Below are positions 4,195 to 17,564 of a stretch of DNA of 64,000 nt, in pieces. How positions within the stretch are numbered: position 1 is the stretch's first letter; each line of letters opens with the position of its first letter. Below the pieces are notes generated by a model. The model searched no databases. It had not been told where the DNA came from and saw only the letters and a list, made by a program, of their open reading frames with translations. The stretch is from Liquorilactobacillus hordei DSM 19519 (GTDB lineage Bacteria > Bacillota > Bacilli > Lactobacillales > Lactobacillaceae), in the NCBI RefSeq assembly GCF_019443985.1, contig NZ_CP049303.1:248001-312000 (forward strand). The letters run 5' to 3'. A program made the position numbers and the translations under genes.

Positions 4195-4380
4195 ACATGT
4201 CCAACTTTTTTAAGGCAGTACAAAGTCGAGAAAATTTGAGTACTAACTCGAAATTACGAATATAGCGGGTAATTCGCTATGAGTAATTCGAAGTTAGACG
4301 GAGAATTTTGACTTATGGAACACGTTTATATGGAATAATTAGCGAGGCTAAATCAAAATTTAACTTTTGGCACAGCCCCT
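4195..4380 (+). repeat. Structured intergenic repeat, copy A, with an IS end at its left
   Basis: This fills most of the gap between the ArsR gene and the next small ORF. The first 23 bases (4195-4217) are identical to the right terminal repeat of the IS at 38310-39772. From 4218 the sequence follows the repeat family: an imperfect long hairpin centred near 4270, then GACTTATGGAACACG and a terminal stem GAGGCT...CAGCCCC. Related copies are at 6075, 25278, 27596, 27784, 39773, 51562 and 58828. Confidence 0.85.
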
Positions 4381-5715: not shown

Positions 5716-6009
5716 GTGGTTATTATTAATGTTCTTTTAAAAGTTATCCCTGAAAAACGCGAAGAATATCTTACGTATGTAGAGAATCTAGTTAACAAGT
5801 CTCTTCAAGATGAGGGAAATGTTTTTTATTCCCATTTTGAGGATGTATATCAAAAAAACCAGTTCATGATTGTTGAAAATTGGGCTAATCAAGCTGCAGT
5901 TGAAGCTCATAATAAAACAGATCATCTGCAAGATTTTCTCAAGAATATTGGAACATATTTAGTTGAAGATTGTAAAATTAATGTTGCTGTAACTGATACA
6001 GAGGGTTAA
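5716..6009 (+). CDS. ABM-domain protein (putative quinol monooxygenase, YgiN-like)
   Basis: This 97-aa ferredoxin-like protein has the antibiotic-biosynthesis-monooxygenase pattern: VIINVLLKVIPEKREEYL, then QDEGNVFYSHFEDVYQKNQFMIVENW and AAVEAHNKTDHLQDF, the His-rich helix of the family. The start is GTG 5716 behind AAGGCGG. Members oxidise quinols or handle haem; substrate cannot be assigned. A single-domain size is normal. It is the last gene before repeat copy B and the IS-flanked island. Confidence 0.75.
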   Translation: MVIINVLLKVIPEKREEYLTYVENLVNKSLQDEGNVFYSHFEDVYQKNQFMIVENWANQAAVEAHNKTDHLQDFLKNIGTYLVEDCKINVAVTDTEG

Positions 6010-6074
6010 AACTTGGAAAGTATTTAAATCCAAGAAGAGATAAAGGCTTACTTACAAGTGACATGCTGAGTTAT

Positions 6075-6238
6075 TAAGGTAGTACAAAGTCAAAAAAATT
6101 TGAGTATTAACTTGAAATTACAAACATAGCAGTTGCTTCGCTATGAGTAATTCAAAGTTAGTACTCAAATTTTGGCTTATGGACAATGTTTATAAGAAAT
6201 AAATAGAGAGCTGGAATCAAATTCCACTCCCAAAAGTA
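6075..6238 (+). repeat. Structured intergenic repeat, copy B
   Basis: AAGGTAGTACAAAGTC, AATTTGAGTATTAACTTGAA, a CATAGCAG...TTCGCTATG dyad, then GGCTTATGGACAATG follow the family consensus. The distal terminator stem is decayed (GAGAGCTGGAATC...CCACTCCC). It ends about 25 bp before the first island IS. Confidence 0.75.
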
Positions 6239-6385
6239 ACATCTTTACAGTCAATACTAATTTTGGATTGAAGTCAATATTTGAGACAGATTTTAAGAGA
6301 CATTTAGAACCGCGTTTACCTTCCACAGCTCAAATAAATCATTAATCGCGATTAATAACTTATTTGAACCCTGGAAGGCATTAAA

Positions 6386-7228
6386 TCAGGCGGCCATTTG
6401 GCTCGTAAGTGTTGCAATTTCAACTTGTAAGGGGGGCTGGTAGCCCAGTGAACTATGAATTCTCTTCCTATTGTAGAAAGCGTGCACATATTCAAAAAGG
6501 ACGGCAGCGGCAGTTTCATAATCTTCAAAGACCGGCACTGGATAAACACATTCCTTTTTGAGGGAAGCGTGAAAGGATTCCATTGGCGCATTATCATACG
6601 GACAACCCTTACGGCTGTATGAGTGGCGGATATGTAGTTCAGTTAAACGTTGGTTGTAATCATCGCTGGTATACTGTGATCCTAAATCCGTATGGATAAT
6701 CAGGCCCCCAGTAATGGTTCAATTTTTAACCACGCTTTCAAGGGTCTTTAAGACTAAATCAGTATCCATCTTTTTTGAGAACGAATAGCCGATAATCCGT
6801 CGTGAGTGCAGATCCATGATGGTTGATAAGTAACACCAGCCATTACGCTTCGTTTGAATATAGGTCATATCAGCGGTCCATTTTTAATTTAAACCAGTGG
6901 TCGAGAAATCCTGCTTAAGCAAGTTGGGACGCTGTTCAACCTTGGTTTTGGAAGCCGAAGCCGCTTTCCACTTATTGACGGTAACGGAGTGGATATCCAG
7001 TTCCTTCATGAGCCGGGAAATCCGTCGTGGACTGCACCGAAGCTGCAGTGGTTGAAGTTCCAGATTCAATTCATGGTGGATCTTCATAACACCGTATCGC
7101 TGCTTAAATTCCGCAAAGATCCGCAGAATCCGTTGTTTCAAGCCCGCATCTTCGGCCCGGCGTTTTGAAGGTTTGGGGGATCGATAACGATAATACTGAG
7201 CTCTGGAAACACCGAGGATTCGGCACAT
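6386..7228 (-). pseudogene. IS3-family transposase orfB with two nonsense codons (copy 1)
   Basis: The reading frame encodes an IS3-group OrfB: MCRILGVSRAQYYRYRSPKP, then KWTADMTYIQTKRNGW with the first catalytic Asp, LIIHTDLGSQYTS with the second, and a DNAPMESFHASLKKE segment with the Glu. It is interrupted by in-frame TAA at 6884-6886, after TTGLN, and TGA at 6719-6721, after VVKN. Without suppression only a 114-aa N-terminal fragment would be made. The frame extends upstream past 7228 toward orfA, consistent with a frameshift-made fusion in the parent element. Confidence 0.85.
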
Positions 7229-7281
7229 CTTGGTTACCTGGTGGTGATGGCTTTCTTGGTGAATGTAATCAAAGATATTGG

Positions 7282-7533
7282 TTACTTCTGCGCAAGGAAG
7301 CCCAGGGCTTTTTTTAGGCTTTCGTTCTCCTCAGACAGCGAAGCCAGTCGCTTTTCCATCGCTTTGATTTCGTCTGGCAATTTACCGGATTGAGTTTTGG
7401 CCTGGCCCTGGATCCACTTATGAACTGTTGAATAGCCAATGCCATATTCTCTGGCCAGTTGGGCAGCTGATTCGCCTTGCTTATATAGGTTGATAATGTT
7501 TTGTTTGAATTCTTTGTCGTAACGAGTTGGCAT
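7282..7533 (-). CDS. IS3-family transposase OrfA (copy 1)
   Basis: This 83-aa DNA-binding subunit has a helix-turn-helix (YKQGESAAQLAREYGIGYST, then VHKWIQG) at about residues 17-43 and a C-terminal leucine-zipper-like helix (EEMEKRL-type heptads to LAQK), as in IS3-family OrfA. It appears intact, so a DNA-binding but non-catalytic product could still be made. Confidence 0.88.
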   Translation of the reverse strand: MPTRYDKEFKQNIINLYKQGESAAQLAREYGIGYSTVHKWIQGQAKTQSGKLPDEIKAMEKRLASLSEENESLKKALGFLAQK

Positions 7534-7605
7534 GTAAAAATTCCTTCCTTTTGAGAGACGATTTATTCATTATACCCTCTTTTAAAAGTTGTCTCAGGAA
7601 TCAGC

Positions 7606-7740
7606 TTACATCCAATTCATTAAAATGTCATTTTCGTTAATATTTATTGCAATATTATTATTTCTAAGATAGTTCAATATTTCTAACGTAAATTTATCCT
7701 CTATCAAAATTTCTATTGAACTTCCCATTTCGTCTTTCAT
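7606..7740 (-). pseudogene. Third gene of the recombinase operon, truncated by IS copy 1
   Basis: A good ribosome site (GGAGG) precedes ATG 7740, 18 bp beyond the stop of the upstream recombinase gene. The 44-aa product MKDEMGSSIEILIEDKFTLE... is acidic. Its last codons, TGG ATG TAA, are the inverted repeat of the IS, so the real gene was longer and lost its 3' end. A two-recombinase-plus-small-protein layout recalls Tn554 tnpABC, but no similarity to TnpC can be claimed. Confidence 0.6.
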
Positions 7741-7758
7741 TCCCTAATCCTCCAAAAA

Positions 7759-8997
7759 TTAACTGTTATTTTTACTCTTACTATAAGTTTTCCTAATCTT
7801 ATAAGCCATGTAATACTCTTTATCAGTTTTCTTTCTTTGGAGTACATTTGTGCTTGATTCTATATCGCCAAATCGTTCCAAACTAAGGTATGCCGCCTCT
7901 TCTACTGTATATCCAACCTTCACTAATCCATCCATGAACCTAATTCTCCCAGCAGTTCTAATAGATGAATTAGTAAACTTTCGATCACAAATATAATCAC
8001 TAAATTTGTCTGCAACAATGTCTATTCTTCTTTGAATGCCAACCTCAGTAAGATTACCTGTTGTCTTATTCTCCCCATAAGGTCTTAAAAGATATCCAGT
8101 TCTTGGAATAGTGCTAAGCCAATTACGTTTAGTATCGTAATATTCTTCCTCGATTGCGTCTTTTATTAAAGAAAATTCCCTAGGTGTTAATTTAATATCT
8201 CTAGGATATTTACCTTTAACATGAATTACGCCATTTCCAATATCACTTTCTTTGAGAAACCTAATTTCGTCATTCTCATCGATCCTAGACAGTTTTAAAC
8301 CATTTAACAATAGAATTAAAACAATACCATTCTGTGCTACGTCAGAACGCATTGCCATTGTTACGATCTCGCTGCCCTCCAAAAATGGAGAAGGCTTTTC
8401 ACTATCTGGAACAACTTTTATTAATTTCTTATAATTCCATTCAACTTTATATTCCATACCAACACTTTTATATTCCTTCGCTACAAATTTTATAAAATTA
8501 TTAAGTTCAAGTAATGCTGTTCTATATGTCATAAAATTAATGAATTTATGTCTGTAAAAGTCTACAACATTAATCATATCATTAAGATTAAATTCCAAAA
8601 TTGACTTACTATTTTTCACTTCAAGTTCTTCAATGTCTGTAAACATTTTGTTGATATTTTTTAATGTACTCTTACTTAAATATTCTCTTGAATAATTAGA
8701 CAGATATAAGCATTTGATATTATTGTCATACAAGAAATTTTTGTTAGAAAATAACTCCCCTTTGCCATTTTTCAATTTATATACGACTAAACTATTAAAT
8801 TTACTACTATTCTCATTTAATAATACTGTTACTTTTTTTATCTTTGTAAAAGGCATTTTAGCAGTATCAATCTCTTTAGCATTAAATAATCTGTCAATAA
8901 ATTTACTATCGAGCTTTGCTTGCAAAAGCTTGTTCTTATGAAGATCTTTTGATTCATGAAACTCATATGATAAAGGTTCACTAATTACGTCTAACAT
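7759..8997 (-). CDS. Tyrosine-recombinase-fold protein, apparently catalytically degenerate
   Basis: This 412-aa protein starts at ATG 8997 behind AGGAGG. The N-terminal half is not recognised. The C-terminal half follows the phage-integrase layout: LLLNGLKLSRIDENDEI where GLRxSE is usual (Arg replaced by Lys), a beta-hairpin with VKGKYPRDIKLTP, then SSIRTAGRIRF where HxLRHT is usual (His lost, Arg kept), and ERFGDIESSTNVLQRK where LGHxxxxTTxxY is usual (His and Tyr missing). It is the second gene after an intact-looking recombinase, so an accessory or DNA-binding role is plausible. Fold assignment is by eye. Confidence 0.65.
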   Translation of the reverse strand: MLDVISEPLSYEFHESKDLHKNKLLQAKLDSKFIDRLFNAKEIDTAKMPFTKIKKVTVLLNENSSKFNSLVVYKLKNGKGELFSNKNFLYDNNIKCLYLSNYSREYLSKSTLKNINKMFTDIEELEVKNSKSILEFNLNDMINVVDFYRHKFINFMTYRTALLELNNFIKFVAKEYKSVGMEYKVEWNYKKLIKVVPDSEKPSPFLEGSEIVTMAMRSDVAQNGIVLILLLNGLKLSRIDENDEIRFLKESDIGNGVIHVKGKYPRDIKLTPREFSLIKDAIEEEYYDTKRNWLSTIPRTGYLLRPYGENKTTGNLTEVGIQRRIDIVADKFSDYICDRKFTNSSIRTAGRIRFMDGLVKVGYTVEEAAYLSLERFGDIESSTNVLQRKKTDKEYYMAYKIRKTYSKSKNNS

Positions 8998-9082
8998 AAA
9001 ACTACCTCCTAGTTAATACAAACAGTATAAACAATTGACACTACCAAATCAACAATTTGATATTTAGATGACCATTTTTTAA

Positions 9083-10132
9083 CTATTCCTTAATATAACC
9101 AAGCTGTATTACTTCTGTATAAATAATATTTTTTAATTCATCTCGTCTGCTAATAATCGAAAGCAATTGTTCATTTGATAAATCTTTTAATTTCTCATAA
9201 TCATTATTACGACTTGCTATTACGCTCCCAGATTCATTTGGATTTCCATTGTCACGAATGTACTTCATTGTTGTCTCAACACTCTCATGATCAAGAAACC
9301 TTGATGTCTTTACGATATCTTTTGTAATTGAGTAAACATAAGTACCCGCACCAACCTTTAATGAATGAGGTGTAATCTTCTTGTCGAACTCTACACTAAA
9401 CTGATCCATATAATGAACTAAGTTATTTTTATTCAAGTCGCTAAAAATATATTCATTATCATCGCCCTTATATAAAACATCAACCATTCTCTGATAGTAT
9501 TGATATGGCAAGAATTTAGTATTCTTTTTTACCCCTTTATCTGTTACTATTAATTTCGCAAATTTAGCCCCACTCCATTCTATGACTTGAAATTGATCCC
9601 ACTTGATTTTGAATGTAGCTGTGCTACGAATTGCAGTCACAAACATAAAATCAACTAACATGGCATATTTTTCACCAATTCTATTATCATTGGACTTGTA
9701 TTGTTTATCAACCAACCATTTTTCAAGATTATCTAAGTCCTTTTTACTCATAGGATTAATATGTTCTATGTCGTCTATTAATACATTAGTGTTCAAATAG
9801 TCTCTTTTAATCTTAACAATGTTGATATCAGGATAAACATTTTCTTTCCCCAAATGATCAAAGAACGATGAAACAATATGGAGGTTTGTGGCAATGGTTG
9901 AATCTTTAACTCCTTTTGCTCTCTCCACTTTGATAAAGTCTCTGAAAACTAAGCCATAATTTATTTTGAGAATAAGTTCTTTTGTAATATGGTTTGTATC
10001 TACTCCAAACAAATTAATAAAAAACTTATCAACACAAAACCTGTATTTTCTTTTCGTGCTTAATGTTCTTCGAGTATCAATAAAACTATCAAAAGCATTG
10101 GATATTTTTGATTTTTCCATTGTGTTTTCCAT
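9083..10132 (-). CDS. Tyrosine recombinase / phage-type integrase
   Basis: This 349-aa site-specific recombinase starts at ATG 10132 behind AGGAGG. The N-terminal SAM-like core-binding domain is about residues 10-125. Catalytic residues appear in order: Arg in FVTAIRSTATFKIKW, Lys in VTDKGVKKNTKFLP, His in TPHSLKVGAGTYVY, His in SRFLDHESVETTMKYI, with Tyr in MKYI. The second Arg of the usual HxxR is Lys here, an uncommon change. It is followed after 85 bp by the degenerate paralogue and preceded by the triple-repeat protein, all on one strand. Confidence 0.85.
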   Translation of the reverse strand: MENTMEKSKISNAFDSFIDTRRTLSTKRKYRFCVDKFFINLFGVDTNHITKELILKINYGLVFRDFIKVERAKGVKDSTIATNLHIVSSFFDHLGKENVYPDINIVKIKRDYLNTNVLIDDIEHINPMSKKDLDNLEKWLVDKQYKSNDNRIGEKYAMLVDFMFVTAIRSTATFKIKWDQFQVIEWSGAKFAKLIVTDKGVKKNTKFLPYQYYQRMVDVLYKGDDNEYIFSDLNKNNLVHYMDQFSVEFDKKITPHSLKVGAGTYVYSITKDIVKTSRFLDHESVETTMKYIRDNGNPNESGSVIASRNNDYEKLKDLSNEQLLSIISRRDELKNIIYTEVIQLGYIKE

Positions 10133-10228
10133 TTCAATTCCTCCTGAAATTAATTTAACTCTCTAACATAAAAATGTCAATATGTTTATTTTAAAGTATC
10201 ACGTTTTTAGTATTAACGTGACCATATA

Positions 10229-10861
10229 TCATTTATACATCATATCTTTAATATCTTTTAAGGTGACTTTATTATGATATAACGTAGCGATAGAGGGCAA
10301 ATTATTTTGTTTCTTCAATATCTTTCCTAAATCTGATTGGTTAATTGATTCTACATCATATTTTTCTTTTGTTAAAAAAGATACTACTTCTTCCAACATT
10401 TTGGTTTTCTTATCCTCTTCACCAATTTTCAATATGTTCTTTTTTATGTAGCCCCAACTGTACCCATAATTGTAAATCTTACCAAATGAAGGCATGTTCT
10501 TATCTTGTTTCAGCAACTCCTTAAATTCCTTTTGAGTCTTAACATTTCTGTTTACCTTAAAAAACTCTTCCAACTGTTGCCTAACAACATTTTTCTCAAC
10601 GTCATACACCTTTTCTGGTCTTCCCATGTTGCTAGTATCTCTAACCTTAACCCTCTTGAAGTCTTTGATTCCTATTAGCTCTAGTATCTCTTTCCATGTC
10701 TTGCCTGTTCTGTTCAACAAGGTAGTTGGAGAAGGAGCTGCTCCTCTCGTATACTTTTCTTGATACAATGTTTTTGATGGTGTTTTTTCTAAGCCTAGCT
10801 TGTAAATTTCTTTTTTAAATTCAATCAGTAATTCTAACGTATCGCTTTTATCAGAACTCAT
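10229..10861 (-). CDS. Triple-repeat protein, putative DNA-binding (homing-endonuclease-associated-repeat-like)
   Basis: This 210-aa protein contains three tandem units of about 55-65 residues. Each ends with a P-S-x-x-T/K-L/I-Y/L core and an aromatic/hydrophobic helix: APSPTTLLNRTGKTWKEIL (about 41-59), MPSFGKIYNYGYSWGYIKK (about 127-145) and LPSIATLYHNKVTLKDIKD (about 188-206). The pattern resembles the small helical repeats attached to homing endonucleases, which bind DNA; that match is from memory. No nuclease motif is seen. The start ATG 10861 follows GAGGT. It is the first gene of the recombinase operon, 25 bp downstream of a long inverted repeat. Confidence 0.55.
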   Translation of the reverse strand: MSSDKSDTLELLIEFKKEIYKLGLEKTPSKTLYQEKYTRGAAPSPTTLLNRTGKTWKEILELIGIKDFKRVKVRDTSNMGRPEKVYDVEKNVVRQQLEEFFKVNRNVKTQKEFKELLKQDKNMPSFGKIYNYGYSWGYIKKNILKIGEEDKKTKMLEEVVSFLTKEKYDVESINQSDLGKILKKQNNLPSIATLYHNKVTLKDIKDMMYK

Positions 10862-10883
10862 ATTTTATACCTCATTCCCTTAA

Positions 10884-10951
10884 TTTATTTTAATTATAAT
10901 TCAATTTAGTATTATAGTCAAATATTAAATTGAATTATAATTAAAATAAAA
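10884..10951. repeat. 25-bp perfect inverted repeat with 18-bp spacer
   Basis: Bases 10884-10908 are the exact reverse complement of 10927-10951; the arms are AT-rich with the core ATTATAATTCAATTT and its complement. The dyad separates the cargo operon (ending at 10977) from the recombinase operon (starting at 10861). It could be a recombination or binding site for the neighbouring recombinases, an operator, or the upstream boundary of the module. The length of the perfect match makes chance unlikely even at this AT content. Confidence 0.85.
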
Positions 10952-10971
10952 AACCACTATAAAGTGGTTTA
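10952..10971 (-). terminator. Intrinsic terminator of the cargo operon
   Basis: AAACCACT (10952-10959), loop ATAA, AGTGGTTT (10964-10971). On the minus strand it is followed by TTTTATTTT and lies 6 bp after the stop of the 97-aa gene. Confidence 0.8.
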
Positions 10972-10976
10972 ATATA

Positions 10977-11270
10977 TTATTCTTTTGTACTTTCAACAAT
11001 AAAGGTAACTAATTGTGCTAATGTCATTCCAGTTTTAATAAAATTATCATTCTTATTGTCGTAAACATCATAGGAATATACGGCTTTACCATAGTTTGTT
11101 TCTACTTTCTTATTCTCATCTGTCATGTTTGGAATCTCACAGATTAACGCTGGTACATTATCAAAGTAATCACTAGGAATTTCTTTTAGAGATCGTAAAT
11201 CAACTCTCTCTTCAATGTTCTTTGTAACTTCTACTACCTCAAATCTTTCAGCAAAATCAATTGGAATCAT
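10977..11270 (-). CDS. Hypothetical island protein, 97 aa
   Basis: This gene is not recognised. The protein is soluble and acidic, opens MIPIDFAERFEVVEVTKNIE, has a tyrosine-rich middle (YGKAVYSYDVYDNKND) and ends in a hydrophobic helix (LAQLVTFIVESTKE). GGGG stands before the ATG. It is the last gene of the minus-strand cargo operon and is followed by a clear terminator. Confidence 0.6.
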   Translation of the reverse strand: MIPIDFAERFEVVEVTKNIEERVDLRSLKEIPSDYFDNVPALICEIPNMTDENKKVETNYGKAVYSYDVYDNKNDNFIKTGMTLAQLVTFIVESTKE

Positions 11271-11291
11271 ATTTTACCCCTAAAAATTCTT

Positions 11292-11663
11292 TTATAATTT
11301 TATCCTTAGCATTCTCTTACAATCCTTTCCGTCTTCTCCATCAAAGAAATTAAGATATATACCGTTTCTACCTCTAACAAATACAGAACACCAATACCAA
11401 CGTCCGTCATATTCATTTTTCATTCTAATCTGCAACGTTAGTAACTGTTCGATTGTTAAGGTTTTGTAATCATCTTCGTCACTCAATCTTATCCTTAGAG
11501 GGCAATACTCGTCACAATTGTCTTTCTCATCAAAGAATTGTGCGCAAACTCCATTACCGAATAACTTTGTAAAAACTGGAAACCAATCATCAGGTTCTCC
11601 TGTATCAAGAAGAATATTTATTGAAAGTAATTCTTTCTGTCCAAGTTTTCTATATTCACTCAA
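11292..11663 (-). CDS. Hypothetical island protein, 123 aa
   Basis: This gene is not recognised. The start is TTG 11663 with AAGGAG upstream. The protein is acidic, with a cysteine group NGVCAQFFDEKDNCDEYCPL at about residues 37-56 and a late Cys (DCKRM), which could bind a metal. Tightly packed between two other small genes (2 and 21 bp gaps), it belongs to the cargo operon. The style recalls small phage accessory proteins, but no family is claimed. Confidence 0.6.
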   Translation of the reverse strand: MSEYRKLGQKELLSINILLDTGEPDDWFPVFTKLFGNGVCAQFFDEKDNCDEYCPLRIRLSDEDDYKTLTIEQLLTLQIRMKNEYDGRWYWCSVFVRGRNGIYLNFFDGEDGKDCKRMLRIKL

Positions 11664-11665
11664 AA

Positions 11666-11935
11666 TTATCGCTCCTTTATATTGTCAGCCAACCATATAT
11701 ACATTTCTTCGAGCGTATTAAATGATGCTTGATAAGATTCCAAGTAAGAATCTCCATATGGACTCATTTCTGGTGACCTCACATAAGATGATACCGTGTA
11801 ATTAACGCCTGTGACATCTTTAGTCCCATTCTCTTCTTGATCAATTATTTCATAGGTTATATTCCAGCCTTTCTCTATGAGCAAATCTATCTTGCGCATA
11901 GCTCTTATATAATCAATAAATCTTTTTATTCCCAT
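11666..11935 (-). CDS. Hypothetical island protein, 89 aa
   Basis: This gene is not recognised. ATG 11935 is chosen because GGAGG lies 10 bases upstream and the gene then overlaps the preceding stop by only 10 bp; an ATG at 11989 would overlap by 64 bp without a ribosome site. The product begins MGIKRFIDYIRAMRKIDLLI and ends FNTLEEMYIWLADNIKER, two amphipathic helices around a Tyr/Ser-rich stretch. It is part of the cargo operon. Confidence 0.6.
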   Translation of the reverse strand: MGIKRFIDYIRAMRKIDLLIEKGWNITYEIIDQEENGTKDVTGVNYTVSSYVRSPEMSPYGDSYLESYQASFNTLEEMYIWLADNIKER

Positions 11936-12603
11936 ACGTTTCCAACCTCCGATGAACCATGTTTCAACGCTGCATTCCGTACGTCCCAATCTTTAACTTT
12001 CTGTCCAAGACTTTCTTTTCCATATTGGTCTGTAATAAGATTAAGATCATGCTTAAATTGTGTCTCTGCACTATTTAAAACATCATTAGCTTCTTCTCTT
12101 AAATTCTGCTTAATATATGGAATTGTGGAAGATAGAAAATTATCAAAGTCAGCATATAACGCTCCTAGTTTTTCTCTATCTGCCTTTCCGATACTTTTCT
12201 TTTCAAAAATTTCTTTTATAACTTCTTGTTTTTCAGAAAAGTCTTTCAATTTTTCATTTAAAACATGGTTAATAGTATGCTCACTTCGCTCTACTGAATT
12301 AGGTGTAACATATTTATTTTTGATATTACGACCAGTAGCACTTCTAATTGTGCAAGTAGTACCAACGCCAACACCAAAAGAACTCACAAATTCTCCCCAC
12401 TGTCTCGGAGAAAGCTCTAACTCTACTATTCTGTCCGATAAATTGTTAAAGATTTCATCACGACCTAGAACTCCGTCTTTAACAACGTTTCCACCATAAA
12501 GTGTGATAGATACAAAAGAGTTAGCATCGAACTCTTCTCCTACTAAACGCTCTCGTCCTGTTGCTCTATTTACAACTATCTTACCTACATTGTCATATCT
12601 CAT
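11926..12603 (-). CDS. Hypothetical island protein, 225 aa, coiled-coil C-terminus
   Basis: AGGAGG precedes ATG 12603. The N-terminal third is beta-rich and includes LELSPRQWGEFVSSFGVGVG, followed by TTCTIRSATGRN, a pattern I associate with phage-borne proteins of unknown function (weak memory-based link). Residues about 115-205 form long charged helices likely to make a coiled coil (VLNEKLKDFSEKQEVIKEIF). A 220-aa frame exists on the opposite strand across this gene but lacks a ribosome site. It belongs to the cargo operon with the zinc-finger gene upstream. Confidence 0.6.
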   Translation of the reverse strand: MRYDNVGKIVVNRATGRERLVGEEFDANSFVSITLYGGNVVKDGVLGRDEIFNNLSDRIVELELSPRQWGEFVSSFGVGVGTTCTIRSATGRNIKNKYVTPNSVERSEHTINHVLNEKLKDFSEKQEVIKEIFEKKSIGKADREKLGALYADFDNFLSSTIPYIKQNLREEANDVLNSAETQFKHDLNLITDQYGKESLGQKVKDWDVRNAALKHGSSEVGNVWE

Positions 12604-12635
12604 AATTTTCCTCCTAAAAATTCTTTTTCGTGTTA

Positions 12636-12908
12636 CTAATGTTGTGTAATACCATGATGATCTTTTAGATGATTAATATATTGGAAATCTGACCAAGCAT
12701 ATAAATTATCATGATAAAATTCTTTATCACATAACTTACATACACAAGCATGATTACTCCGTTTGAAATAACTTTTATACCATTGATTGCAATTTCTACC
12801 TATCGGATTATTGTGGGTTGATAAGTGACGATTAAATACTGCAAACCCATTAGTAGTATTGATTTCTTTGCCACACACTTTGCATTTCATAAAATATTTT
12901 GTTGTCAT
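12636..12908 (-). CDS. Double zinc-finger-like small protein
   Basis: This 90-aa protein is read from ATG 12908, behind AGGAAGGG, rather than from an upstream ATG at 12998 that overlaps the previous gene. It has two matched C2H2-like units: CKVCGKEINTTNGFAVFNRH followed by LSTH, and CKLCDKEFYHDNLYAWSDFQ followed by a HxxxHH group. Each has CxxC, then about 13-20 residues, then paired His. Such modules occur in phage and mobile-element proteins linked to HNH nucleases, but no nuclease domain is present here. Nucleic-acid binding is the likely role. Confidence 0.65.
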   Translation of the reverse strand: MTTKYFMKCKVCGKEINTTNGFAVFNRHLSTHNNPIGRNCNQWYKSYFKRSNHACVCKLCDKEFYHDNLYAWSDFQYINHLKDHHGITQH

Positions 12909-12942
12909 CAATTTAGCCCTTCCTAAAATGTTGATATTACTA

Positions 12943-13662
12943 CTATAAAATATATTGATATTTATTTCGATCACTTTTACGCATTTTTCTTTCTTCACAA
13001 TTGAAAGAGTAATCTATTGAATGATAGAAGTTGTAAAATTTATCCCAATAATTATCTCCATACATCATATCTACCAACTTGTCTCCCTCTTCACTAGTTA
13101 TTCCATAAAAGAATAACTTCATGTCGGGACTTGCATTCTTTTCTATTTTGATACCAACTTCCGAAGCCCCGACACACTTCTTTGCTTCAATAATACTGTC
13201 AATAATTTTATTGAAATTATTAATATCTTCTGTACTACGGCCAAGAATTTCTTTTTTATCTTCCAGATAATGAAGCAACATATAGTCCTTGATAGTTGCA
13301 ATATCATATTTGAGATGGTTTGGTTTAAAAACGCCCTCAATAGTCAACAGGCTCTCATCATATCTTGTAAAATCTGCTGCATCAAGAGTGTCCAAATAGA
13401 GTCGATACGTGATATTGTTTCGTTCATCTCTTCCAACAAACAAACCAATCTTATATACGTCATTAAAATTTCTTGGCTTAATAGTACAAGAAACCTGTCT
13501 TATATACATATTGACCCTGAACAATTTTTCATAATTGTGTGTTCGCCAAACTGGATTGTCAAAGTAATGTGTGAGTGCAATGTCTCCTAATTCATGTATG
13601 AAATTCAGATAATCATTTTTCTTTTCTACTGAATACTTTTTCTTAGCAATTCTTTTTTTCAC
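12943..13662 (-). CDS. Hypothetical island protein, 239 aa
   Basis: This gene is not recognised. The start is GTG 13662 with AGGAG upstream. The N-terminus is strongly basic (KKRIAKKKYSVEKK); the rest is a mixed alpha/beta soluble protein (YKIGLFVGRDERNNITYRLY; IIDSIIEAKKCVGASEVGIK). It is the first gene of the cargo operon, separated from higA by a terminator. A 13-base motif found again before the zinc-finger gene lies just upstream at 13690-13702. Confidence 0.6.
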   Translation of the reverse strand: MKKRIAKKKYSVEKKNDYLNFIHELGDIALTHYFDNPVWRTHNYEKLFRVNMYIRQVSCTIKPRNFNDVYKIGLFVGRDERNNITYRLYLDTLDAADFTRYDESLLTIEGVFKPNHLKYDIATIKDYMLLHYLEDKKEILGRSTEDINNFNKIIDSIIEAKKCVGASEVGIKIEKNASPDMKLFFYGITSEEGDKLVDMMYGDNYWDKFYNFYHSIDYSFNCEERKMRKSDRNKYQYIL

Positions 13663-13707
13663 TCTACTTCACTCCTAAACTTTATATCAATATTACTACT
13701 ATTACGA

Positions 13708-13740
13708 TAAAAAAATAAGGTTCTGGTAACCCTATTTTTT
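13708..13740 (-). terminator. Terminator after higBA
   Basis: AAAAAATAAGGTT, a 5-base loop (ctggt) and AACCCTATTTTTT form a stem with T runs on both strands. It lies 6 bp after the higA stop and separates the toxin-antitoxin unit from the cargo operon. Confidence 0.75.
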
Positions 13741-13746
13741 AAATTA

Positions 13747-14043
13747 CTAGCACGAGGATTGAAAGACTTTTATACTATCATAATCTTCACTATTATCATT
13801 TTTTGCATTCCTTATATCAATATCGTTCTGTATATTCAAGAAATATTGATCGGACATACCAAAGAATCTTCCCAACCTTACCGATGTATCTACCGTAATT
13901 TTTCTACGATCATGTAATATAGCTTGAATTCTAGATATAGGAACATTTATATTTTTCGCTAAGGAATATGCAGTTAGATTCAATGGTTGCATAAATTCTT
14001 CTTTTAAAATTTCGCTCATTTTTGGTGTTGGAATTTTCTCCAT
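13747..14043 (-). CDS. higA: HigA-type antitoxin, XRE family
   Basis: This 98-aa helix-turn-helix protein of the HigA family starts MEKIPTPKMSEILKEEFMQP; the helix-turn-helix is at about residues 24-52 (TAYSLAKNINVPISRIQAIL), followed by RRKITVDTSVRLGRFFGMSD, the usual HigA signature. It should bind and neutralise the upstream-encoded toxin and repress the shared promoter. AAAGGAG precedes the ATG, 14 bp after the toxin stop. Toxin-first order is normal for higBA. Confidence 0.92.
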   Translation of the reverse strand: MEKIPTPKMSEILKEEFMQPLNLTAYSLAKNINVPISRIQAILHDRRKITVDTSVRLGRFFGMSDQYFLNIQNDIDIRNAKNDNSEDYDSIKVFQSSC

Positions 14044-14057
14044 AATACATCTCTCCT

Positions 14058-14342
14058 TTAATGATAGTCTACTATCTCTACATCACAGAAATTATTTACA
14101 TCTTCAAGTGTAAAACAAATTCTATATTGATCATTAATTGCTATGCTGTATTGCCCCTCTCTATTTCCCACCAATTTTTCTAAGTGGTTCGATGGTGGCA
14201 CACGTAAATCATTAATGTTCATTGAGCTTTCCATCATCATGAGTTTGATTAAAGCTCTCTTCTGAATATTTTCTGGCAGCTTTTTTGAAAATTTACCAGT
14301 GTATATTTTTTCTGTTTCCTTGTCGGCAAAATTCTTTATCAT
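14058..14342 (-). CDS. higB: HigB-type toxin, RelE/ParE superfamily
   Basis: This 94-aa protein is predicted to be a ribosome-dependent mRNA endonuclease. Family features are MIKNFADKETEKIYTGKFSK, LPENIQKRALIKLMMMESSM, LRVPPSNHLEKLVGNREGQY and SIAINDQYRICFTLEDV, with the conserved Arg of QYRICF. The length is normal. It is co-transcribed with higA from a promoter that has a palindrome in its spacer. Confidence 0.92.
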   Translation of the reverse strand: MIKNFADKETEKIYTGKFSKKLPENIQKRALIKLMMMESSMNINDLRVPPSNHLEKLVGNREGQYSIAINDQYRICFTLEDVNNFCDVEIVDYH

Positions 14343-14374
14343 AGTCTTACTTACCTTACCTTATCTTAATATGT

Positions 14375-14402
14375 ATTATACACGTAGTGCGTGTATAGTC
14401 AA
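14375..14402 (-). promoter_or_regulatory. higBA promoter with embedded operator palindrome
   Basis: On the minus strand, -35 TTGACT (14397-14402), a 16-bp spacer and -10 TATAAT (14375-14380). The dyad TATACACG-TAGTG-CGTGTATA (14377-14397) covers the spacer and touches both hexamers, so a bound HigA dimer would block polymerase. This is the expected autoregulatory arrangement. Confidence 0.8.
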
Positions 14403-14479
14403 CTATTATATTCTTCAATGATAAAATAGTTATTTTATCGTCCATATCATACTAGGCAATCTGTAAAATTTCTTTCTTG

Positions 14480-14494
14480 CGTGTATCGTACACG
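14480..14494. promoter_or_regulatory. Second HigA-operator-like dyad
   Basis: CGTGTA-TCG-TACACG repeats the half-site of the higBA promoter operator about 85 bp further upstream. It may be a second HigA site. The remaining gap up to IS copy 2 shows only an imperfect version of the ACTATTACTAT motif at 14531-14549. Confidence 0.5.
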
Positions 14495-14701
14495 TACATA
14501 TCATTGATTAATCTTTCAATTTGAATGTTAATATTCATACTATTACTATAACCCAATTTGTTACAAAGAACAATCATTCTGGATTGAAGTCAATATTTGA
14601 GACAGATTTTAAGAGACATTTAGAACCGCGTTTACCTTCCACAGCTCAAATAAATCATTAATCGCGATTAATAACTTATTTGAACCCTGGAAGGCATTAA
14701 A

Positions 14702-15544
14702 TCAGGCGGCCATTTGGCTCGTAAGTGTTGCAATTTCAACTTGTAAGGGGGGCTGGTAGCCCAGTGAACTATGAATTCTCTTCCTATTGTAGAAAGCGTG
14801 CACATATTCAAAAAGGACGGCAGCGGCAGTTTCATAATCTTCAAAGACCGGCACTGGATAAACACATTCCTTTTTGAGGGAAGCGTGAAAGGATTCCATT
14901 GGCGCATTATCATACGGACAACCCTTACGGCTGTATGAGTGGCGGATATGTAGTTCAGTTAAACGTTGGTTGTAATCATCGCTGGTATACTGTGATCCTA
15001 AATCCGTATGGATAATCAGGCCCCCAGTAATGGTTCAATTTTTAACCACGCTTTCAAGGGTCTTTAAGACTAAATCAGTATCCATCTTTTTTGAGAACGA
15101 ATAGCCGATAATCCGTCGTGAGTGCAGATCCATGATGGTTGATAAGTAACACCAGCCATTACGCTTCGTTTGAATATAGGTCATATCAGCGGTCCATTTT
15201 TAATTTAAACCAGTGGTCGAGAAATCCTGCTTAAGCAAGTTGGGACGCTGTTCAACCTTGGTTTTGGAAGCCGAAGCCGCTTTCCACTTATTGACGGTAA
15301 CGGAGTGGATATCCAGTTCCTTCATGAGCCGGGAAATCCGTCGTGGACTGCACCGAAGCTGCAGTGGTTGAAGTTCCAGATTCAATTCATGGTGGATCTT
15401 CATAACACCGTATCGCTGCTTAAATTCCGCAAAGATCCGCAGAATCCGTTGTTTCAAGCCCGCATCTTCGGCCCGGCGTTTTGAAGGTTTGGGGGATCGA
15501 TAACGATAATACTGAGCTCTGGAAACACCGAGGATTCGGCACAT
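14702..15544 (-). pseudogene. IS3-family transposase orfB with two nonsense codons (copy 2)
   Basis: The DDE-type OrfB frame is interrupted by the same TAA (15200-15202) and TGA (15035-15037) as in copy 1. Sharing both defects shows that the copies descend from an already mutated element, moved in trans, by read-through, or by segmental duplication. Confidence 0.85.
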
Positions 15545-15597
15545 CTTGGTTACCTGGTGGTGATGGCTTTCTTGGTGAATGTAATCAAAGATATTGG

Positions 15598-15849
15598 TTA
15601 CTTCTGCGCAAGGAAGCCCAGGGCTTTTTTTAGGCTTTCGTTCTCCTCAGACAGCGAAGCCAGTCGCTTTTCCATCGCTTTGATTTCGTCTGGCAATTTA
15701 CCGGATTGAGTTTTGGCCTGGCCCTGGATCCACTTATGAACTGTTGAATAGCCAATGCCATATTCTCTGGCCAGTTGGGCAGCTGATTCGCCTTGCTTAT
15801 ATAGGTTGATAATGTTTTGTTTGAATTCTTTGTCGTAACGAGTTGGCAT
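15598..15849 (-). CDS. IS3-family transposase OrfA (copy 2)
   Basis: This 83-aa protein is identical to the copy 1 OrfA, with helix-turn-helix and C-terminal coiled-coil helix. Its start ATG 15849 is about 80 bp inside the right inverted repeat. Confidence 0.88.
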   Translation of the reverse strand: MPTRYDKEFKQNIINLYKQGESAAQLAREYGIGYSTVHKWIQGQAKTQSGKLPDEIKAMEKRLASLSEENESLKKALGFLAQK

Positions 15850-16021
15850 GTAAAAATTCCTTCCTTTTGAGAGACGATTTATTCATTATACCCTCTCTTA
15901 AAAGTTGTCTCAGGAATCAGCTTACATCCAGCAAATTTACATGATATTTTCTAAACACTTTATACGTAATTATGATTCTTTTCTGATCTGATACCTTGCT
16001 AAAAATATCATGTGATAATGC

Positions 16022-16086
16022 AAAAACTTCCTTTCGCTCTAATAGTTTTAAGCTACTAACCAAAACTATTATGAAAGGAAGTTTTT
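16022..16086 (-). terminator. Terminator of the menB-menE operon
   Basis: AAAAACTTCCTTTC (16022-16035) pairs perfectly with GAAAGGAAGTTTTT (16073-16086), and an inner arm (AATAGTTTT with AAAACTATT) lengthens the stem. It lies about 35 bp after the menE stop. Between it and IS copy 2 there are only about 90 bp without features. Confidence 0.85.
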
Positions 16087-16121
16087 CTCGCTAAATTTCG
16101 TTTTTGCTTCAACCAATTCAA

Positions 16122-17564
16122 TTATTTAGCTTCATTAATCAGCTCATACCGTTTTACCTTACCACTAGCTGTTCGCGGAAGTTTCGCTACCCTTACAAAC
16201 TGTTTGGGAATCTTAAAATGAGCCAATTTTTTCTTACCATACGCAATTAATTCATTATTGGGAATTTCATGCAGAGCAACATAAAAGCCAACCGGTACTT
16301 CACCCCATTGATCATCAGAAATTCCGCAGACCGCAAATTCAGTAATTGCTGAAAAACCTGCATAGGCGTTTTCAATCTCATCTGGAAAAATATTCTCTCC
16401 TCCAGAAATTAACATTTCACCTTTTCTTCCTTCAACAAATAAAAAATTTTCTTTATTAAAATGCCCAATATCACCAGTCTTAAACCAACCATCTCCTGTT
16501 AACTTTTTATTAAAATCAGATGATTTACCTAAATATCCAGGTGTAATATTAGGTGCTTTAATTTCAATTTCCTTCGTTTCTTCATCAATTCTAAGTTGTA
16601 CTGGGAAGAGTGGTTTTCCAACAGAACCCACAGCATTCAAGGCATCATTAAAACTCAAAGCCACAACTTGCGAACAAGTTTCCGTCATTCCATAAGATTG
16701 AATAACAGGTAGTTTCAGTGCAATGCACTTCCCCAGCGTCTGCTCATCAATTGCAGCTCCGCCTAAAAGAAAACATCTGAATTTACTATTGTAGCCCACT
16801 GTCGGAAATAATTCTAATAATCGCTTTAACATCTGAGGTACCACAGACATTACCGTGACTGGCAGTTTTTGAAGTAGCTGTGTTATCTGTTTCTCTTCAA
16901 AACGCTCAACTAACAATACTGGCATACCATATATTAAGCTGCGCATCATTATTGAAAGTCCACTAATATGAAAGATTGGAACCGCACATAACCACAGATC
17001 ATCTGCTTGCAGTCCCAAATTAATAGCTGAACCCATAGCCGAAAAGAAATGATTCTTAAATGTTTGCAATACCCCGTGTGGATTTCCAGTTGTTCCTGAG
17101 GTAAACATAATCGTCGTTACCTGATTATCCTCATATTCTTCTATCACATTAGATTTATTTTCACTAAGCTTTTTTATTTGTGATAATTTCCAACAACTAA
17201 TATTTGTAACTTTCGCTAATTTTGTCAGCTCTTTATTTCTTGTTTGTAAGGAATCATCAATCAAAACTCGATCTACATCCGCAATTTCAATCTGCTTTGA
17301 CAATTCAAATAAACTCAACCTAAAGTTAAGCAAAACTATCTGTATACCCATTTCTTGTAATGCCAAGATAGTTAAGTAGCTAGCCGGCGTATTAGCAGCC
17401 AAAAGTCCAATCTTGCAATGTGAGTTATTGATAATATTCTGCAATTTCCCATTAAGTACCAATACTTCATCATTCAATTGTTGAAAAGTCCAGAGTCGCC
17501 CTTCAAAGATCAATGCTGTTTTATTAGGGACAAGTCCTGCTTGTTTATTTAACCAATTTTCCAA
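16122..17564 (-). CDS. menE: o-succinylbenzoate--CoA ligase (MenE)
   Basis: This adenylate-forming enzyme would activate o-succinylbenzoate to its CoA thioester in menaquinone synthesis. The 480-aa protein has the P-loop TIMFTSGTTGNPHG, the motif QSYGMTETCSQ, GWFKTGDIGHF, and the C-terminal hinge/lysine segment RTASGKVKRYEL. The start is TTG 17564 with GAGGAG about ten bases upstream. It follows menB by 27 bp. MenE is hard to tell from other small acyl-CoA ligases by motif alone; the menB neighbour decides the call. Confidence 0.9.
   Translation of the reverse strand: MENWLNKQAGLVPNKTALIFEGRLWTFQQLNDEVLVLNGKLQNIINNSHCKIGLLAANTPASYLTILALQEMGIQIVLLNFRLSLFELSKQIEIADVDRVLIDDSLQTRNKELTKLAKVTNISCWKLSQIKKLSENKSNVIEEYEDNQVTTIMFTSGTTGNPHGVLQTFKNHFFSAMGSAINLGLQADDLWLCAVPIFHISGLSIMMRSLIYGMPVLLVERFEEKQITQLLQKLPVTVMSVVPQMLKRLLELFPTVGYNSKFRCFLLGGAAIDEQTLGKCIALKLPVIQSYGMTETCSQVVALSFNDALNAVGSVGKPLFPVQLRIDEETKEIEIKAPNITPGYLGKSSDFNKKLTGDGWFKTGDIGHFNKENFLFVEGRKGEMLISGGENIFPDEIENAYAGFSAITEFAVCGISDDQWGEVPVGFYVALHEIPNNELIAYGKKKLAHFKIPKQFVRVAKLPRTASGKVKRYELINEAK

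Follow-up and report, generated by a model that had tools for sequence, protein, structure and literature searches.

In the 64,000-nucleotide stretch of Liquorilactobacillus hordei DSM 19519 analysed here (positions 248,001 to 312,000 of contig NZ_CP049303.1; this whole stretch is called the window, and unlabelled coordinates refer to it), three intact minus-strand open reading frames (ORFs) of 210, 349 and 412 amino acids (aa) and a fourth gene cut by an insertion sequence (IS) form an operon. We consider it very probable that the module served an SPbeta-related phage-plasmid as its lysogeny-control operon, that 7 kb of phage DNA, the module included, was captured between two IS copies in the host chromosome, and that the 412-aa protein is the MrpR-type repressor of the operon. 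As a form of MrpR-type lysogeny control the module is a variant: its setting is a phage-plasmid, its leader protein is a different one, it has no detectable AimR, and it has been captured by IS copies.

The MrpR-like protein and its recombinase neighbour

By sequence profile, the 412-aa protein (7759..8997, minus strand) is a degenerate tyrosine-recombinase homologue that groups with the MrpR/YopR/SroF repressors of SPbeta-type phages, and it is taken here as an MrpR-type DNA-binding protein, predicted to be a repressor. A profile (A6) of eight Lactobacillaceae relatives, namely those of the window, of a Liquorilactobacillus mali contig, of contig C1 of the window's own genome and of five other genomes, retrieved three Protein Data Bank (PDB) sequences at E<=1, all of them SPbeta MrpR/YopR, with a best E of 7.6e-10; the PDB molecule name gives MrpR as the SPbeta master regulator. 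With hhalign, an alignment of the window, L. mali and C1 proteins (A3) matched one of YopR and ten class-level hits (A8) at 98.6% and E 1.4e-15; since those ten hits had been found with the eight-protein profile, only the presence of YopR is independent here. Direct blastp similarity to YopR is weak, with E values of 5e-4 for the C1 protein and 0.08 for the window protein in a comparison of 16 proteins. Foldseek placed MrpR/YopR first and phi3T SroF next, at TM-scores of 0.20-0.28 on a low-confidence model; because our own model of the protein is poor (mean pLDDT 58.8), its recombinase fold rests on homology. Read by eye, the catalytic positions include a Ser (S344) in place of His, and the 18 aligned relatives have no consistent second His or Tyr, with Lys or Arg remaining at some of the basic positions. 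The profile evidence thus agrees with the preliminary description of this locus, which had called the protein a degenerate recombinase. A tblastn search of phages and plasmids with the 412- and 413-aa proteins returned only two weak Thermoanaerobacterium records, and scans of viral contigs confirmed no relative.

The 349-aa neighbour (9083..10132, minus strand) is a tyrosine recombinase of the YopP kind with the catalytic set R/K/H/(K)/H/Y. It matches PF00589 at E 1.8e-8 and, in the 16-protein comparison, SPbeta YopP at E 9e-11, the C1 copy doing so at 1e-15. The Arg, Lys, His, His and Tyr reported for it earlier are in place (R169, K199, H256, H282 and Y291), with Lys (K259) at the position of the usual second Arg (HxxR). 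In an alignment of 12 relatives, without the split copy of plasmid W06, Lys and Tyr are kept in all 12, and the first Arg, the first His and the second His in 11 each; the usual second Arg is Lys in nine and Arg in three. The one copy in which the first Arg and the first His are both missing stands alone, in genome G181, and the aligned phage copies keep the catalytic set, except that W08 has Asn for the second His.

Both proteins have relatives in large phage-like plasmids of Limosilactobacillus, Ligilactobacillus, Vagococcus, Bacillus velezensis and Clostridioides that share the terminase of the parent phages. The terminase matched 26 plasmid and 104 phage records, and we chose eight plasmids by terminase from the 26 (15 listed). 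An MrpR-like gene is present in all eight, and a YopP-like recombinase lies directly upstream of it in L. mali, in C1 and in seven of the eight plasmids (as two frames in W06); W08 has at that position a more diverged recombinase, outside the profile's reach. The Thermoanaerobacterium plasmid W10, which was not found through its terminase, has no adjacent recombinase. The eight plasmids differ from the module in the repeat protein described below, which is complete only in L. mucosae pLM1; in W04, a 127-aa frame about 4 kb before the recombinase matches the repeat-protein profile. A 17-row profile of the MrpR-like protein (A9) matched 12 of 13 records, including nine of the ten not used to build it, and phage LC76P1 was without a match. 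By profile, relatives of the 412-aa protein occur in 7 of 397 Lactobacillaceae genomes and in 13 of 398 genomes of the class (the window's genome counted in both), and the absence of a match in 385 of these 398 shows the profile to be selective. The module is a real one that recurs with partner genes, a point on which the preliminary description was right, and its homologues are not confined to ordinary prophage integrases without them.

Two plasmid records bear on gene state and annotation. In the L. reuteri YLR001 plasmid (L096 4044-5113), the recombinase gene is split into two frames and the MrpR-like gene is open. One gene annotated as a tyrosine recombinase in Thermoanaerobacterium plasmid pMU3262 (L049, NC_017998 91546-92487) is an MrpR-type relative (E 1.6e-56) that adjoins a ParM gene.

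Phage-plasmid relatives and the IS-bounded fragment

The window's genome has three contigs, one of which, C1, is 145,096 bp long (L004-L006, L057-L062) and holds a diverged copy of the window operon. The first 21.6 kb of C1 recur at its end, differing by 14 gaps and 0 mismatches, and because of this terminal overlap C1 is apparently circular, an over-assembled circle of about 123.5 kb and an SPbeta-type phage-plasmid. Its terminase is 42% identical to SPbeta YonF, and when 32 SPbeta proteins were compared with C1 and L. mali (blastp, E 1e-4), C1 also had relatives of YonD, YonG, YonJ, YonN, YorI, YorJ and YorL, along with a ParA ATPase; terminase, replication genes, an apparently circular replicon and a partition gene are thus all present. 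The L. mali contig has the same set of SPbeta relatives, and 109 of its ORF calls of at least 60 aa match C1, a number that includes spurious overlapping frames. At the same threshold, neither C1 nor L. mali had a homologue of yokA, the annotated integrase, or of yopK (AimR), though a distant AimR could escape such a comparison.

The module itself lies on a 6,967-bp fragment of an SPbeta-type phage genome (7614..14580) between two direct copies of an IS3-family element, a family name taken from plasmid annotations. The fragment aligns end to end with the 126,646-bp L. mali contig (window 7615-14581 against L001 2402-9385) at 86.8% over 7,001 columns. This contig is the closer relative of the fragment and shares phage genes with C1; of the two, C1 is the one that looks circular. 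The left IS copy (6265..7613, minus strand) and the right copy (14581..15929, same orientation) have edges read from the alignment and are 99.85% identical, differing over 1,355 bp at 2 positions, of which one lies outside the element. Reading the alignment, we saw no target duplication at the outer flanks of the pair or around either copy, and a composite transposon was rejected for want of a target-site duplication. The fourth operon gene survives as a 5' remnant (7614..7740, minus strand) whose frame starts at 7740 and runs into the left IS copy at its edge, 7613. Elsewhere the gene is uncut, encoding 161 aa in L. mali and 166 aa in C1, and these two proteins are 23% identical (E 1e-3 in the 16-protein comparison).

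Two relatives within the genus show the surroundings of the insertion. In G122, homology to the left flank stops 2 bp from the IS edge, and about 23 kb separate this point from the right flank; the two flanks in G096 are 3.6 kb apart. The fetched stretches of both gave no match to the phage fragment, and the 412-aa profile had no match in G122, most of whose 23 kb between the flanks is unread.

The SPbeta yopK-yopR region (NC_001884; MrpR = YopR, PDB 8a0a, 8bj6, 8bjv) resembles the module in having a degenerate recombinase downstream of a YopP-type recombinase and dispersed promoter-proximal elements, and the parent phages have relatives of the SPbeta terminase and polymerase. However, the order in SPbeta is yopP-yopQ-yopR, whereas the module has no YopQ/DndB-like gene between recombinase and repressor. 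No AimR (yopK) homologue having been found by blastp at E 1e-4 in L. mali or C1, the module does not qualify as an arbitrium (AimR/AimP) system; it also has a 210-aa repeat-like protein at the position of yopO, its repressor has about 90 extra N-terminal residues, and its parent appears to be a plasmid prophage. The phi3T SroF structures that followed MrpR/YopR in the Foldseek search (PDB 9rd5, and 9rgl with the antirepressor Sar) carry titles that speak of DNA-bound, repressor and antirepressor. As a separate observation, Pfam DndB (DNA-sulfur modification-associated) recognises SPbeta YopQ and one relative, with E values of 7e-16 and 2.6e-9; their genes stand immediately ahead of the repressor gene (L047 (G618) 7369-8679; L010 19875-21257).

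Promoter, leader protein and dispersed elements

The operon starts beside an inverted repeat (10884..10950) whose 30-nt arms, 10884-10913 and 10921-10950, are 97% complementary, the outer 25 bp being perfect, as the preliminary description had it; the score was reached in 0 of 60 shuffles of the 270-nt region. Absent from that description is a minus-strand sigma70-type promoter (TTGACT, 17 nt, TATAAT) that we read inside the repeat, with its -35 at the loop (10916-10921) and its -10 in an arm (10893-10898); the repeat is a probable operator. Both 25-bp arms are identical in L. mali. The repeat was rejected as a general hallmark of the 210-aa family, being found in only two of seven upstream regions, and also as the dispersed operator: any other match to its 25-nt half-site has at least 6 mismatches in L. 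mali and at least 4 in C1. The MrpR-like gene has a promoter-like sequence of its own at window 8998-9082, with TCAA-N4-TTGA over the -35 region, and the same is seen in L. mali and C1. No Rfam RNA was found in 6000-16500 at the gathering threshold.

The first gene encodes the 210-aa leader protein (10229..10861, minus strand), which has repeat-like segments and is a predicted DNA-binding regulator, with relatives in C1, G107, G362, G181 and L. mucosae pLM1. The window and L. mali operon proteins are 78-90% identical, and the L. mali 210-aa gene has an early frameshift, possibly a draft error. Three tandem repeats had been proposed for the leader. This structure is borne out in part only: the likeness of repeats 2 and 3 was reached by 3 of 500 shuffles, that of 1 and 2 by 29 and that of 1 and 3 by 84, and Pfam HNH_repeat (PF18780) did not match the window protein at its gathering cut-off. 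In another MrpR locus, that of G618, YopQ- and YopR-like genes follow the gene of an HNH_repeat protein (PF18780, E 4.3e-10), and hhalign of the 210-aa family against this protein gave 61.7% and E 7.7e-5, a weak and distant link.

MrpR binds elements dispersed over SPbeta. We examined seven MrpR-bearing genomes for repeated 12-mers, with 12 Markov simulations per genome, and four of them have strong dispersed promoter-proximal elements, SPbeta has a weaker one and two have none. The word AATATTACTACT occurs 17 times in L. mali, with distinct flanks, TAAACATAATGA 22 times in C1, AACAAAACCATT 19 times in the B. velezensis plasmid and AACAATAAAGTT 15 times in the Vagococcus plasmid; the largest simulated word count for any of these four was at most 6. 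As controls, phage LC76P1, which has no MrpR match, gave a top 12-mer count of 5 and 48 kb of host chromosome gave 4. The elements are mostly non-coding (19 of 27 in L. mali, 14/24 and 7/10 for two C1 forms, 8/13 in Vagococcus, 13/16 in B. velezensis and 10/12 in SPbeta), against a non-coding share of 8-12% in these genomes by our own ORF set. They are directional, and many end in a -35-like TTGAMA or sit about 10-30 nt before a start codon. In the two of the eight plasmids with strong elements, the element sequences are unlike those of L. mali and C1.

A position weight matrix (PWM) search gave 73 sites in L. mali and 84 in C1, with a threshold from one random sequence and with the redundant 21.6 kb of C1 included; our conclusions rest on the exact-word counts, and the matrices for scanning the window come from the PWM search. 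On the 64-kb window, the L. mali and C1 matrices gave three matches and one match of score >=18, all four inside the fragment and none in the other 57 kb. The L. mali-type matches, all on the minus strand, lie just before a ribosome-binding site (12913..12952, score 25.6), upstream of a 239-aa gene (13669..13708, 26.6) and, less surely, at 14510..14549 (27.4), where the match overlaps by eye the end of a remnant coding frame. Since the fragment is homologous to L. mali, these three are conserved rather than independent sites. The fourth, AAATAAACATATTGACA, of the contig-C1 type, lies upstream of the recombinase gene (10175..10191, minus strand), and related sequence occupies the corresponding position in L. 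mali and C1.

Copies outside phages and alternative explanations

Besides the window, there are six loci in which the genes around the relative of the 412-aa protein do not look, by eye, like phage genes; these loci are called chromosomal by their neighbours only, and the G374 copy, on a 14.5-kb contig, could be on a plasmid. The full trio is present in G181; G362 has the repeat protein, a recombinase in three frames and an MrpR-like gene; G107 has the repeat protein and an MrpR-like gene, adjoining (by eye) a type I restriction system; and G225, G374 and G473 have the MrpR-like gene alone. The stretches fetched for G107, G225, G374 and G473 showed no recombinase. Counting the window, all seven loci outside intact phages have an open MrpR-like frame, and one of them, the window, has a recombinase with the catalytic set; in the other six the recombinase is mutated, broken or absent. 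Open MrpR-like frames beside decayed recombinases favour the view that DNA binding has been kept in preference to recombination.

We propose that the 412-aa protein, its catalysis lost, would bind short elements at phage promoters and leaders, and that when so bound it would silence the plasmid prophage. The YopP-like recombinase, its usual neighbour in phage-plasmids, perhaps resolves multimers or modulates the repressor, and the promoter inverted repeat is probably where the 210-aa protein acts to control the operon. Copies outside phages would most likely have been retained as immunity against related phages. If this is correct, MrpR-type control, so far named in solved structures from SPbeta and phi3T, would be a general switch of SPbeta-type phage-plasmids, spanning Lactobacillaceae, Vagococcus, Bacillus and Clostridioides, and from the dispersed elements one could predict operators and immunity groups of the large plasmid prophages found in food and gut bacteria. 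They would also make it possible to test what the YopP-like recombinase, often beside the repressor in phage-plasmids, does there. Genes that such records annotate as "integrase", "recombinase" or "hypothetical" should in some cases be regarded as repressor candidates.

Several observations weigh against this proposal. The window protein matches PF22822 (MrpR_N_CB) at E 2.6e-4 and 22 bits, under the cut-off of 27, although the relative on the B. velezensis plasmid passes it at 74.9 bits, and the MrpR-like match in W04 is weak (15.4 bits). No YopP-like recombinase was found at E 1e-3 in the ten class-level loci L039-L048; the partnership is therefore not universal, and the pairing characterises the phage-plasmids, not MrpR-like genes in general. 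Among the loci outside phages, which were found with protein profiles, the share of open frames may be inflated. The inverted repeat rises above shuffles only in the window and L. mali, two of the seven upstream regions tested. In SPbeta the top 12-mer, an AT-rich word, occurs 7 times against up to 6 in simulations, yet AAAWAATATGTAT occurs 12 times; L. mucosae pLM1 has the full trio and a top 12-mer count of 4, not above chance; and W10 has only low-complexity words (13, against up to 9 simulated). The window element before the recombinase gene belongs with those of C1 and not with those of L. mali. Finally, protein and element are linked by co-occurrence only, and the position of many copies, about 10-30 nt ahead of a start codon, would also suit a phage promoter or leader signal.

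The recombinase might instead be a plasmid multimer resolvase whose adjacency to the repressor is mere operon convenience, an explanation that is compatible with a repressor role for the 412-aa protein and that we regard as a serious possibility, though we lean against it. C1, apparently, and several related records are circular replicons, neither C1 nor L. mali has the yokA homologue sought above, and the aligned phage copies keep the catalytic set, W08 apart. However, SPbeta, with att sites and an annotated integrase, also keeps yopP beside yopQ-yopR, and no resolution site was identified, no systematic search having been made.

It is unlikely, in our judgement, that the module is a functionless, decaying phage remnant moved by chance between two IS copies. 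The cut fourth gene, the lack of target duplications and the mere 7 kb of phage DNA left would fit such a remnant, but the three frames are fully open, their products are as similar to those of L. mali as given above, the promoter inverted repeat is preserved, and at all seven loci that lie outside intact phages the MrpR-like frame has stayed open, in contrast to the decaying recombinase.

A bolder form of the regulatory proposal joins the live recombinase and its dead paralogue in one machine: the repressor would assemble, recombinase-like, on dozens of phage-specific elements, and the live partner would tune or relieve it or couple it to plasmid resolution. The element code of each lineage would then define an immunity group, and hosts would repeatedly have captured the operon, lost the recombinase and kept a stand-alone immunity locus. 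We offer this as speculation, with little expectation that all of it holds.

The preliminary description saw in the module the best candidate for an undescribed mobile or DNA-rearrangement system. In such a system the recombinase, aided by the dead paralogue and the leader protein, would excise and insert the module at ends of its own. The recombinase does keep R/K/H/H/Y, and in G181 the trio occupies a stretch of about 3.5 kb between ordinary genes that is richer in AT than its surroundings (34.5% GC against 44.8% and 47.2% in the flanks) and is absent from the corresponding place in the sister genome G134. The comparison of strains that had been proposed thus gave one empty site, but by eye no repeats at the ends of the G181 stretch relative to G134, and a genus search around the G107 copy gave no usable empty site. 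With the window copy bounded by IS copies, MrpR/YopR/SroF kinship, a phage-plasmid setting and a recombinase that outside phages has lost key residues (G181), fallen into three frames (G362) or was not found, the reverse of what a mobile element needs, we reject a self-mobile element as highly improbable. Tn554-type and recombinase-in-trio elements carry two or three catalytic recombinases that work on the ends of the element. The module shares with Tn554 tnpABC and the trios several recombinase-like genes in a row, but only one of its two recombinase-like proteins keeps the catalytic set, the other being a repressor relative, and no element ends of its own were seen; it is therefore not of their type.

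Other genes and repeats lie nearby. A HigB toxin/HigA antitoxin pair is present on the fragment (13747..14342, minus strand; PF05015 E 2.6e-18, TIGR02607 E 3.7e-24). Toxin-antitoxin genes, MazF-like or HigB/RelE-like by eye, also lie near other recombinase/MrpR-like loci in L. reuteri and L. salivarius plasmids (L092-L094, L096), and a MazEF-like pair, again by eye, adjoins the lone MrpR-like gene of G473 (L039:8015-8584). At about 4195-4380, the window holds a dispersed repeat of about 185 bp, resembling a miniature inverted-repeat transposable element, that recurs dozens of times among genomes of the genus.

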